Source: a virus. Taken from it: 25,362 nucleotides of DNA. The DNA lies in IMG/VR virus record IMGVR_UViG_3300028595_000058, positions 1 to 25,362 of that record; one strand, given 5' to 3'. This document shows, piece by piece, positions 4,472 through 7,138 of this stretch. The stretch's first letter is position 1. Each line of letters opens with the position of its first letter. Below the pieces are notes generated by a model. It did not search any database, was not told the origin of the DNA, and worked only from the letters and a program-made list of their open reading frames with translations. Both the position numbers and the translations under genes were made by a program.

Positions 4472-4517
4472 ATACGCTAGTTGTAGTGCATTAAAACGAC
4501 ACTACAACAACGTGTAT
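4472..4517. repeat. Two-part imperfect inverted repeat downstream of the methyltransferase
   Basis: The arms TTGTAGTG (4481-4488) and CACTACAA (4500-4507) pair perfectly around an 11-base loop. After a 3+3 base internal loop (TAG against CAA), ATACGC (4472-4477) pairs with GTGTAT (4512-4517) with one mismatch. A bulged two-step stem like this recalls short attC sites, but conserved R-box sequences are not clear. It differs in sequence and size from the three larger repeats at 5548, 5909 and 6578. There is no T run, so a terminator is unlikely. Confidence 0.6.
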
Positions 4518-4567
4518 AGTTAATGCCTAAGTAAGTGCTTAACCCAAAGTGTAGTGTCTGTTTGCCC

Positions 4568-4586
4568 ATAATTAAAATATTTTTTT
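4568..4586. repeat. Left copy of a 19-bp inverted repeat flanking the methyltransferase
   Basis: ATAATTAAAATATTTTTTT here is the exact reverse complement of 5297-5315. This copy is 26 bases beyond the methyltransferase stop. The core AAAATATTTT is itself palindromic, so the match is partly of low complexity, but 19 exact bases around one gene is still notable. Confidence 0.6.
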
Positions 4587-4612
4587 GCCAACGCTCTTTT
4601 TCTCACTCATAC

Positions 4613-5296
4613 TTAAAATAAAGTGTGCTGTGATTTTAAAGCATCTAAACTTCTTTGTCCGTTACCAAACCACTTTTCATCAAGTTCAGTTCCTATATAA
4701 TTTCTGTTTTCTTTATAACAAGCAATCGCAGTAGAAAAACTACCCATAAAGCCATCAAAAATCAAATCACCTTCTTTACTACTATGTAATATTATTTTGC
4801 GAATAATATCGTATTCTTTTTGGTGTGGGTGGCTTGTATCTGTATGCTGTACGTGTTTCATTTTCCAAACATTACTCATATCCTTTCTATTATACTTTGC
4901 TTTGCCTTTTTCAAGCACCAAACAAACCTCGTACTGGTTTCTAAAACCATAACCCATACCAATATTGTTTTTAACCATTATACAAAGCATACGGTAGTTA
5001 TAACCGTTATTTACTGCATACTCTTTTATTTGGTTTACAAATTTATGGTTGCTAAACAAGTATAGGCTTGTGTCTTGTTTCATTTTTGGTAATACTGCAT
5101 CTAAAAAACGGTAGTTAATACTTTCGTCTTCATTGTTTAGTATTTCTTTTTCGTTTCTGCCATAACCAATCCCATCTCCGTAAGGTGGGTCAACTATTAC
5201 TAAATCCAAACTTTCATCTGGCATTACTGCAATTAAATCAAAGCAGTCTGCATTGTAGATTTTGTTTTTTGCAAAAACAATTTTGCCATCGCTCAT
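4613..5296 (-). CDS. Beta-class DNA methyltransferase, probably N6-adenine
   Basis: A 227-residue protein. The catalytic motif IV, VDPPYGDG (DPPY at residues 36-39), comes first and the AdoMet-binding motif I, FDGFMGSFSTA (about 180-190), comes near the C-terminus, the order that defines beta-class enzymes. HPHQKEYDIIRKII at about 156 corresponds to the usual HPTQKP region, and IGTELDEKWF is the acidic end of motif II. DPPY points to adenine N6 rather than cytosine N4 methylation. No restriction enzyme gene is adjacent, so it is likely an orphan enzyme that protects phage DNA or modulates expression. It is in the minus-strand accessory block, between a terminator-bearing non-coding stretch and an inverted repeat. 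Confidence 0.9.
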   Translation of the reverse strand: MSDGKIVFAKNKIYNADCFDLIAVMPDESLDLVIVDPPYGDGIGYGRNEKEILNNEDESINYRFLDAVLPKMKQDTSLYLFSNHKFVNQIKEYAVNNGYNYRMLCIMVKNNIGMGYGFRNQYEVCLVLEKGKAKYNRKDMSNVWKMKHVQHTDTSHPHQKEYDIIRKIILHSSKEGDLIFDGFMGSFSTAIACYKENRNYIGTELDEKWFGNGQRSLDALKSQHTLF

Positions 5297-5315
5297 AAAA
5301 AAATATTTTAATTAT
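5297..5315. repeat. Right copy of a 19-bp inverted repeat, abutting the methyltransferase start
   Basis: Reverse complement of 4568-4586 over 19 bases. It lies directly upstream of the methyltransferase ATG, so it covers the ribosome-binding region and might act in control of that gene as well as being an end repeat. Confidence 0.6.
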
Positions 5316-5363
5316 TAATTCTGTTCTTAATTCAATCTTTGTGCTTATCAAAGGCACTAACCA

Positions 5364-5381
5364 TACACAATACGTTGTGTA
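5364..5381. repeat. Short hairpin upstream of the methyltransferase
   Basis: TACACAA-TACG-TTGTGTA is a perfect seven-base stem with a four-base loop. It lies between the methyltransferase start and the minus-strand terminator at 5386-5408. ACACAAC/GTTGTGT is also the outer box of the large repeat at 5548, so this may be a degenerate relative. Confidence 0.55.
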
Positions 5382-5385
5382 CAAT

Positions 5386-5408
5386 AAAAATGCTAGTCTC
5401 TCCTAGCA
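5386..5408 (-). terminator. Rho-independent terminator, minus strand
   Basis: Read on the minus strand: TGCTAG-GAGAGA-CTAGCA followed by TTTTTATTG. The stem is six perfect base pairs. It would end transcripts coming from the cluster upstream (higher coordinates) about 90 bases before the methyltransferase, which would therefore need its own promoter. Confidence 0.7.
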
Positions 5409-5547
5409 GTCACACCTAAGCTAACTAGTACAACATAGTATCGGACATCGCTCCTTTCGGTTTACGTATGCTACCCGACCTAACACCGTTATACGTGCCT
5501 CCCTGTGTCCCACACGCTCTTTTTCTGCCACCGCATTTTTTACAGAT
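5409..5547 (-). other. GC-richer non-coding stretch, possible small RNA
   Basis: No convincing gene. The only long reading frame (63 residues, 5421-5612 minus) overlaps the repeat at 5548 and has no recognisable protein character. The DNA here is distinctly GC-richer than its surroundings, and the stretch ends at the minus-strand terminator, so a short structured RNA is possible. It also holds GTATAAC and GTTAGGT only three bases apart on the minus strand, which resemble the outer boxes of the large repeats and may be a collapsed copy. A 13-bp direct repeat, ACGCTCTTTTTCT, occurs here (5514-5526) and beyond the methyltransferase (4591-4603). Confidence 0.35.
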
Positions 5548-5678
5548 ACACAACAATGTGTATAAATAATAGCGGTGTTACTGCAATATTTTAAATAACT
5601 ACTTTTAATCAATCCTTGTAAATATATGAAAGTTTTTGGCTTTAAATCCGCTACTATTCATACACTCGTACGTTATGG
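5548..5678 (-). repeat. attC-like structured repeat B (131 bp)
   Basis: Read on the minus strand: outer box CCATAAC (5678-5672), 6 unpaired bases, stem strand GTGTATGAATAGTAGCGG, a 72-base centre, stem strand CCGCTATTATTTATACAC, 3 unpaired bases, outer box GTTGTGT (5554-5548). The 18-bp stem has 16 Watson-Crick pairs. It begins 7 bases after the stop of the gene at 5686. The same layout, including the position of the two stem mismatches, is repeated at 5909 and 6578. This resembles integron attC sites (R'' ending AAC, R' starting GTT, asymmetric unpaired bases). Confidence 0.7.
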
Positions 5679-5685
5679 CACAATA

Positions 5686-5898
5686 CTACTTTTTACGTGC
5701 CTTAAACCTTTCTATATATTCACAAAGTGTAGTTAATACTGCTTCACTCGCTTCTTTTTCGCTCTCGTTGTCATACTTTTCTGCATCTCTTAACAGTTCA
5801 AGCATTGTTGCAAATTCTTTTTTTGGTGGTATAGGTGGTACTTCAAGTGGTAATCCTCCAATACTGCTAACTATTTGTTTTTTTCTATTCCAAAACAT
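5686..5898 (-). CDS. Hypothetical protein, 70 residues, cassette-like gene
   Basis: The protein has a short basic start (MFWNRKKQ), a proline-rich segment (GGLPLEVPPIPPKKEF) and a C-terminal helical half (about residues 30-70) of mixed charge. No signal peptide or membrane span. The start codon lies 10 bases after the GTTAGGC box of repeat C and the TAG stop lies 7 bases before the CCATAAC box of repeat B, so the gene fills the space between two repeats, as a cassette gene would. Function unknown. Confidence 0.6.
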   Translation of the reverse strand: MFWNRKKQIVSSIGGLPLEVPPIPPKKEFATMLELLRDAEKYDNESEKEASEAVLTTLCEYIERFKARKK

Positions 5899-5908
5899 AC
5901 CGTACTGT

Positions 5909-6039
5909 GCCTAACAATTTGTAAAAATAATAGCCGAGTTAAACGATTTATTTAAGCTATTACATATGTTTAATATTCGTTGTAATTTGATAAGTCAGTA
6001 TTCTAAAACGGCTACTATTCTTACAAGTAGCCGTTATAC
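5909..6039 (-). repeat. attC-like structured repeat C (131 bp)
   Basis: Minus strand: outer box GTATAAC (6039-6033), 6 unpaired bases, stem strand TTGTAAGAATAGTAGCCG, 72-base centre, stem strand CGGCTATTATTTTTACAA, 3 unpaired bases, outer box GTTAGGC (5915-5909). GTTAGGC matches the classic integron core site GTTRRRY exactly. The 18-bp stem has 16 Watson-Crick pairs, with mismatches at the same two positions as in repeats B and D. Confidence 0.75.
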
Positions 6040-6093
6040 ACAAGCGTAGAAAGTATCGTTCAATTAATCAACACCTGTGCAAATTTGCCATAA

Positions 6094-6240
6094 TTATTTT
6101 TGCCCTCGCACGTGTTCTTCGAATAAATCGTACAAGTAATCAGTAAGGTTTTTACCTGCTTTGGCAGCCATTACAGATAATTTATTGGCTGTTGTGCCTT
6201 TTTGGTCTAGTTCGCCTTGTATTTTAACGAGTTTTTTCAT
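6094..6240 (-). CDS. Small ribbon-helix-helix-like protein (48 residues)
   Basis: The frame begins with ATG at 6240-6238, overlapping the stop of the 64-residue gene as TAATG, and ends with TAA at 6096-6094. The N-terminus, MKKLVKIQGELDQKG, could be the beta strand, and MAAKAGKNLTDYLYDLFEEH has the pattern A-x-x-x-G-K-[ST/N]-L-x-x-[YF]-[IL] found in the helix of CopG/Arc-type and antitoxin-like proteins. It is the second gene of a two-gene operon. A DNA-binding or antitoxin role is suggested by this pattern only. Confidence 0.6.
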   Translation of the reverse strand: MKKLVKIQGELDQKGTTANKLSVMAAKAGKNLTDYLYDLFEEHVRGQK

Positions 6241-6434
6241 TAAAATTCCCTCCAAGTTGCTTTTATACCTCTTTTTTTAGGTAAAGTTTCACCTCGCTCA
6301 GTCAACTCTTCTAATGCTGCTAAAGCTAAAACATTTGGTGTTTTTTTAACAACAGTTTCATCATAATAAACTTTTACTTCTTTTTTAACTGCTCCTGTTT
6401 TTTTGTTTCTGAATGTTACTAAATAAGCTTTCAT
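6240..6434 (-). CDS. Hypothetical protein, 64 residues, first gene of a coupled pair
   Basis: A basic protein with a beta-strand start (MKAYLVTFRNKKTGAVKKEV), a likely helix around ALAALEELTERG and a basic end. It has its own recognisable promoter (6461-6493 minus) and is coupled to the ribbon-helix-helix-like gene by a TAATG overlap. The pair sits between repeats D and C. The arrangement is like a toxin-antitoxin or regulator pair, but no known toxin family is recognised. Confidence 0.6.
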   Translation of the reverse strand: MKAYLVTFRNKKTGAVKKEVKVYYDETVVKKTPNVLALAALEELTERGETLPKKRGIKATWREF

Positions 6435-6460
6435 AATCGTATCTTTTTAAATTTGTTTAT

Positions 6461-6493
6461 GTAAATATATAGCATATATACGACATATACAAA
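6461..6493 (-). promoter_or_regulatory. Bacteroidetes-type promoter for the 64/48-residue pair
   Basis: On the minus strand TTTG (6493-6490) is followed after 20 bases by TATATTTA (near match to TAnnTTTG). The start codon is 27 bases downstream. Spacing and sequence fit the Bacteroidetes primary sigma factor consensus with one base off at the last position of the -7 box. Confidence 0.6.
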
Positions 6494-6577
6494 TAAAGGT
6501 TACAAAAAATAACCCCTTACCTAAAAAATAATTATTACGTCCGTATTTCAAATGTAGTTAAGTGGTTAAACGCCAGT

Positions 6578-6706
6578 GTATAACACTTTATAAAAATAAT
6601 AGCCGTATTCGTGGTAATTGAATCGGCTATACATTTATTTAAGTGTGTCATAGGTTGAAATATCCTGCAAGTAATCGGCTACTATTCTTATAATTTTTCG
6701 TTATGG
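6578..6706 (-). repeat. attC-like structured repeat D (129 bp)
   Basis: Minus strand: outer box CCATAAC (6706-6700), 6 unpaired bases, stem strand TTATAAGAATAGTAGCCG, 70-base centre, stem strand CGGCTATTATTTTTATAA, 3 unpaired bases, outer box GTTATAC (6584-6578). The stop codon TAA of the gene at 6701 lies inside the CCATAAC box, which is a common feature where cassette genes run into their attC site. Stem arms differ from repeat C mainly by compensating changes next to the outer boxes, while the centre is different in sequence but similar in length. Confidence 0.75.
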
Positions 6707-7093
6707 CGCATGAACCGCCCGCACAATCGCCTCGTTTAAACAAATTGCTTCCTCTTGTGCTATTTTTATGGCTTGCATGCAATAATGCCTAACTACTATA
6801 CTTTTATCATCATCGGTATTGTTGACAATTTTAGCGTACTTAACAATCTTCTCAGTTTCTTCAACAGTGTATGGGCTTATTACGCTTAATTCCTCCGCTA
6901 AAGTGCTTGGAAAATACACACAATCACGCGCCATAACACTAAATATAAATAATAAAAATTTACTTCGTTTTGCGGTTCTTTCAAGTTCTCTGCCAAAATT
7001 GAGGCAAGCTAAACGGAACTGCATAAAAGCTCCTATACTGGTGTTTAAGTGAATTAATTGTCTTTGTTCTAAATTGTAATATGGTTTCTTCAT
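6701..7093 (-). CDS. Hypothetical protein, 130 residues, cassette-like gene
   Basis: A largely helical protein with several cysteines (4) and a hydrophobic stretch around residues 44-56 (SKFLLFIFSVMARDCVYF) that may be a buried helix rather than a membrane span. The stop codon overlaps the outer box of repeat D, and the start is a few bases from the half repeat at 7106-7132. No family recognised, and no promoter of its own is obvious. Confidence 0.65.
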   Translation of the reverse strand: MKKPYYNLEQRQLIHLNTSIGAFMQFRLACLNFGRELERTAKRSKFLLFIFSVMARDCVYFPSTLAEELSVISPYTVEETEKIVKYAKIVNNTDDDKSIVVRHYCMQAIKIAQEEAICLNEAIVRAVHAP

Positions 7094-7105
7094 GTCCGTA
7101 AATTT

Positions 7106-7132
7106 TTACTATTCATACATTAACCGTTATAT
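7106..7132 (-). repeat. Half copy of the attC-like repeat (only the R'' arm)
   Basis: Minus strand: ATATAAC (7132-7126), 5 to 6 bases, then ATGTATGAATAGTA, which matches the first arm of repeats B, C and D. The partner arm is absent, and the ATG of the 130-residue gene follows 12 bases later. The half site starts 6 bases after the TAG stop of the degenerate gene at 7139, the same gene-stop-to-box spacing seen in the complete copies. Confidence 0.6.
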
Positions 7133-7138
7133 ACAAGG

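Follow-up and report, generated by a model that had tools for sequence, protein, structure and literature searches.

Putative attC-type sites in an integrase-less phage gene-cassette array, with related arrays beside tyrosine recombinases in Bacteroidota

The viral locus

The window, meaning the whole stretch of DNA analysed, is the entire 25,362-base IMG/VR record IMGVR_UViG_3300028595_000058, which also encodes terminase, portal, and capsid genes. Four candidate attC-type sites lie on its minus strand: element A (5543..5683; AAC at 5674-5672), element B (5904..6044; AAC at 6035-6033, GTT at 5915-5913), element C (6573..6711; AAC at 6702-6700, GTT at 6584-6582), and element D (6926..7137, ~212 nt). 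The coordinates of A to C include the outer boxes. These three share one layout: AAC, 6 nt, one strand of an 18-bp stem, the centre, the second stem strand, 3 nt, and GTT. This geometry had been noted for three minus-strand repeats in a preliminary description of the DNA, and all three are present, the two-arm pattern being matched three times in the window and in none of 100 shuffles; a fourth copy, element D, had been missed. It has arms of the same kind as A to C and a longer centre, containing part of an ORF. Sites of ~200 nt with a partial ORF in the loop, resembling D, were also seen at 31109-31322 and 39507-39718 of L220.

A covariance model (R1) was built on 57 elements, three of them from the window. 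On the minus strand, A to C score 98-109 bits (103.4 for A, 108.8 for B, and 97.7 for C; E-values 1e-20 to 1e-23), compared with 38-50 bits on the plus strand. Element D, in which arms and boxes could be read, scores 43 bits (E=1e-7), and no other match in the window exceeds 16 bits. The mismatches reported within the stems do fall at fixed places, but on the minus strand they are G.T wobbles, with A.C mismatches on the plus strand. The minus strand is therefore the strand able to fold fully. Folding as DNA predicted the full 18-bp stem on the minus strand in C and B (minimum energy) and in A (centroid), and not on the plus strand of A to C; z-scores were modest.

Elements A to C are imperfect inverted repeats that fold as single strands, and at 129-141 nt they lie within the attC range (57-142 nt), D being longer. 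Four elements occur within 1.6 kb, and no tyrosine recombinase (PF00589) was found in the window record, possibly a fragment; the absence of an integrase had been claimed from the outset. Both features correspond to the definition of a CALIN (at least two attC sites within 4 kb, no integrase). The elements matched no Rfam family, element A had no match in plasmids, and BLAST of the region against phages matched the methyltransferase gene alone.

Gene cassettes and their cargo

The elements bound three candidate cassettes, all on the minus strand. Cassette D-C (6700..6940) holds an ORF of 78 codons (6701-6937) with its ATG in the start box and its stop in the end box; the two boxes, GTTATGGCGCGTGA and TCATGCGCCATAAC, pair at 13 of 14 positions. 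Cassette C-B (6033..6584) contains two short ORFs, one at 6240-6434 and the other ending near 6090, and its boxes, GTTATACACTGGCG and CGCTTGTGTATAAC, pair at 12 of 14. Cassette B-A (5672..5915) carries an ORF for 70 aa (5686-5898), its boxes, GTTAGGCAC and GTGCCATAAC, being complementary save for one extra base. A further cassette is probable at 4519..5361 on the minus strand, where an N6/N4 DNA methyltransferase gene (4613-5296; PF01555, E=1e-28) lies between boxes without stems (GTTAGTGCCT and AGGCATTAAC; 9 of 10 complementary by eye).

Relatives of the methyltransferase (72-89 % identity) occur in viral contigs showing no element nearby. No Pfam or PHROG family was found for the small cassette proteins, and only one of the three has a viral relative: the 78-codon ORF of D-C has a 78 % identical protein relative in contig L227, there without an attC site, the strong homology being confined to the cassette interior. 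Cassette C-B and a cassette of phage G038 (terminase 43 % identical) have their ends in common but differ in the middle.

Two smaller features were noted in this region. At 4482-4511 there is an inverted repeat with perfect arms (GTTGTAGTG...CACTACAAC) and an 11-nt loop, which resembles two cassette boxes without an intervening gene, or a terminator. Within 5353-5500, at two spots, an AAC box is followed by a GTT box within 3-12 nt with no stem; these are possibly sites whose hairpin was deleted.

Paired boxes at cassette ends

In integrons, the start box of a cassette pairs with the end box of the same cassette, since excision brings the two together in a circle. This was examined for neighbouring elements on the same strand separated by less than 1.5 kb, with a threshold of at least 7 of 9 positions outside the fixed GTT/AAC. 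The start and end boxes of the same cassette are complementary in 92 of 118 adjacent pairs, against 1.6 % for random pairs, while the two boxes of one element are complementary in only 10 of 176. This mutual complementarity of GTT start and AAC end boxes is what would be seen if excision as a circle restored a paired site. It is the strongest single argument for attC-type sites, and it is independent of GTTAGGC.

The complementarity extends to about position 14 and then stops, both in chromosomes (n=78) and in viruses (n=34), and both have a fixed G.T at box position 11. At positions 4-9 it is weaker in viruses (0.71-0.91) than in chromosomes (0.97-0.99), which may mean that a fraction of the phage arrays is in decay.

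Distribution of the family and the stem signature

Outside the window, the two-arm pattern was found in 39 viral stretches. Where the spacing is ~90-94 bases, the full layout is mostly present; the remaining stretches are chance-like. In genomes sampled at one per species, it was found in at least 118 stretches, nearly all from Bacteroidota among the matches listed, which also include some Marinimicrobia, Chlorobiota/Ignavibacteria, and Cloacimonadota. With R1 (E<=1e-6), at least one element is present in 102 of 120 Flavobacteriaceae genomes, while 28 control loci, mostly chance matches to the pattern, reach no more than 28 bits. The family is found in many phages as well as in most of these Flavobacteriaceae. 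Closely related elements (98 % support) occur in a Flavobacterium MAG (L053, 2968-3108) and a Marinimicrobia MAG (L060, 5263-5403), reflecting either inter-phylum transfer or mis-binned contigs.

Outer stem pairs covary across the family. In 130 elements chosen without the pattern, stem sequence varies while two G.T wobbles recur at the same places, 5 nt apart, with the G on the AAC-side arm. There is an unpaired central spacer, of 5-7 nt on one side and 2-4 nt on the other. The extrahelical bases that determine strand choice in attC sites (a G in L'' and a T 6-8 nt on) were not found, nor were bulges; the two G.T wobbles are present instead. GTTAGGC, which had been assigned to element C and offered as an exact fit to the integron core GTTRRRY, belongs to the element at 5909-6039, and the fit is uninformative because 19 of 163 family boxes match GTTRRRY while GTTR is present in all 163, among boxes anchored at GTT.

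Recombinases beside the chromosomal arrays

The complete chromosome of Lacinutrix neustonica (NZ_CP113088) has at least 134 element matches. Many of these belong to a same-strand array spanning 839-1005 kb, which follows a tyrosine recombinase gene (834-835 kb) whose reading frame is disrupted in the assembly. Near-identical ~450-bp cassettes without a clear ORF are repeated in both of the arrays examined from this species (L079 and L121). In Spongiivirga, Maribacter, Winogradskyella, and others, intact recombinases adjoin the arrays. Among genomes found through the recombinase N-terminal domain, elements lie downstream of the recombinase and on the opposite strand in 22 of 25 same-contig cases, the pairs being hand-picked among the best matches listed.

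At all eight recombinase-array loci compared, the recombinase stop is followed after 25-201 nt by a GTT box that fits the first cassette's end at 11-13 of 14 positions, the next best box reaching 8-9. The chromosomal loci therefore have both parts of an integron platform, a tyrosine recombinase by the array and an attI-like boundary before the first cassette.

The families scoring best with the array recombinases are IntI (TIGR02249) and archaeal-type XerA (NF040815). Unlike IntI, they remain below the TIGR02249 cut-off (194-228 bits; cut-off 265), all those adjacent to arrays lack the IntI-specific additional domain (IntI1 residues 197-227), and an additional N-terminal domain of ~95 aa, with no match in Pfam, is present in most (L160, L162, L164, L168-L170, and L173). 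This extra domain is apparently repeated in L164. Support in the recombinase tree is too poor to place the array recombinases relative to IntI1; the best solved relative of a related protein, L159, is the V. cholerae IntI4 structure (2A3V).

The additional IntI domain is held to be necessary for integron recombination. Surveys for IntI select by it (PMC2426708), which may explain the absence of Bacteroidota arrays from such surveys. Integrons have been reported as nearly absent from Bacteroidetes, with IntegronFinder 2.0 detecting one complete integron, in Salinibacter ruber, besides In0 elements (PMC9024848), and no Bacteroidota set is among the taxon-specific attC models (PMC8352920). Despite this reported near-absence, sites are present in the large majority of the Flavobacteriaceae genomes searched here.

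Phage arrays and gene polarity

Tandem same-strand arrays occur in both chromosomes and phages, with up to 16 element matches in a phage record. Of 17 viral records with arrays, 15 lack a PF00589 recombinase, among them the window and records of 57-94 kb; in the two that have one, the elements are chromosome-like. Many phage cassettes measure just ~150-400 bp and contain ORFs of 40-130 aa, alongside larger ones.

Canonical integrons fold on the bottom strand, and the chromosomal arrays here have the same polarity, with genes opposite to the G.T-folding strand (58:3). In phage arrays, in contrast, genes lie on the G.T-folding strand (24:2; Fisher p=5e-16, a value that overstates the number of independent events because arrays are related, although the contrast is nearly complete all the same). 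Simple uptake of host cassettes by phages would not be expected to give this reversal. A host cassette in a phage array would be antisense, and vice versa, so the phage cassettes are probably for the most part a pool of their own, passed from phage to phage.

In the element tree, which has few columns and weak support, phage elements cluster (11 label changes, compared with 37 in shuffles) and unrelated phages have elements in common. Cassette ends are also common to phages with distant terminases. Among 14 terminase relatives of the window phage, three records have elements and the closest (53 %) has none. No cassette gain or loss was seen between near-identical phages in a collection without close relatives of the window; two record pairs sharing elements are each the same phage, one of them a circularly permuted phage of ~39 kb.

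Members of the family are also carried by the isolated, lytic Polaribacter phage P12002L. Qi et al. (2023; PMC9892861) described in this phage a CALIN that contains two methyltransferases, and reported that its attC2 recombined with IntI1. It is likely that those attC sites are the family elements found here in P12002L. The preliminary description had considered an attC array in a phage unusual; the array itself is supported, but phage attC arrays were already published in that paper.

Interpretation and alternatives

The elements are most probably attC-type recombination sites, and the region at ~4.5-7.1 kb an integrase-less gene-cassette array in a phage; we put the probability of this at about 0.8. 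The attC-like reading first proposed from the repeats is supported by the cassette-end complementarity, the tandem arrays, and the chromosomal recombinase and attI-like anatomy. Against it, the third window cassette has imperfect boxes, and no excision, insertion, or single-cassette difference was seen in collections that lack close relatives. The system does not belong to the canonical integrons, having neither GTTRRRY boxes, nor extrahelical bases, nor the IntI-specific domain; an integron-like mode of working is nevertheless the best explanation.

One strand of each site, the minus strand here, can fold into a long hairpin containing two G.T wobbles at fixed places, with a box of ~14 nt on either side. 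A host recombinase would bind the folded single strand and recombine at the box, and the excised circle would regenerate a paired site. From the chromosomal anatomy, the lack of a phage enzyme, and the recombination of a P12002L site with IntI1, we infer that a host enzyme acts on the phage sites. The phage could in this way gain, lose, and exchange small genes, such as that for the DNA methyltransferase, with the host enzyme supplied in trans.

Alternatively, a phage may once have acquired a stretch of cassette array whose sites no longer recombine in phages. The missing recombinase, the weaker box complementarity in viruses, and the stemless boxes around the methyltransferase gene would all suit such a dead array. 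It is unlikely, however, given that two window cassettes keep 12-13 of 14 complementary box positions and that elements and cassette ends are common to unrelated phages; the near-uniform polarity of the phage arrays, unlike that of the chromosomes, also means that they are not simply captured host arrays. A role in mRNA, with the phage hairpins acting as terminators or processing signals, could coexist with recombination and would fit both the position of phage genes on the folding strand and that of sites directly 3′ of stops. As the sole explanation it is improbable, since the folding strand of the chromosomal arrays is non-coding, the complementarity joins the ends of cassettes rather than of hairpins, which an RNA role leaves unexplained, and Rfam has no match.

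The wide distribution, and the existence of near-identical elements with differing boxes at both sides, might instead be taken to indicate dispersed MITE- or REP-like repeats that move by themselves and are intergenic incidentally. Regular same-strand arrays, boxes specific to each cassette, and a recombinase with an attI-like boundary heading the arrays make this very hard to sustain. Chance inverted repeats are refuted: the window is AT-rich DNA with many weak ones, but the shuffles, the E-values, the recurrence across Flavobacteriaceae genomes, and the low-scoring controls are all incompatible with that origin.

Whether the attC-type sites belong to a second type of integron is an evenly balanced question. 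Such a type would be widespread in Bacteroidota and related phyla, with XerA/IntI-like recombinases without the IntI-specific domain and G.T-wobble hairpin sites, and lytic phages would exploit it in trans through arrays of mirrored polarity, so that small genes, possibly with counter-defence roles, would stay in a pool exclusive to phages and separate from that of the hosts.

Comparison with known systems

The Vibrio cholerae superintegron is similar in its long arrays of single-gene cassettes, its sites of ~130 bp, its paired end boxes, and the recombinase and attI that head the array. It differs in several respects: here the recombinase gene is codirectional with the cassettes and the attI-like box lies behind its 3′ end, the recombinase is without the IntI-specific domain, the boxes are ~14 nt with GTTR alone invariant, and the stems carry G.T wobbles in place of extrahelical bases. 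Should the array-adjacent recombinases prove active, the Bacteroidota branch does not need the IntI-specific domain, and G.T wobbles, instead of extrahelical bases, may determine which strand is used.

The phage CALINs of Qi et al. (2023; PMC9892861) are alike in having integrase-less attC-type sites beside DNA methyltransferase genes, and include the family through P12002L; the common Bacteroidota family, the reversed polarity, and the host platform are not reported in that paper. The host-type system appears to be undescribed in the open-access journal papers searched, in which no description of host-type arrays was found, while phage attC arrays are already known (PMC9892861). For phages, the arrays would represent a route to the acquisition of single genes without a recombinase of their own, and polarity distinguishes their cassettes from those of hosts.

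Elements on plasmids

Two elements were noted on plasmids. In Myroides odoratimimus (NZ_CP125998; L225, 285-426), a 66-bit element immediately precedes genes for a tyrosine recombinase and an IS91 family transposase. On the 1.6-Mb Persicobacter plasmid CP012852 (L221, 8175-8315), a 76-bit element lies ~3.4 kb from a related tyrosine recombinase.
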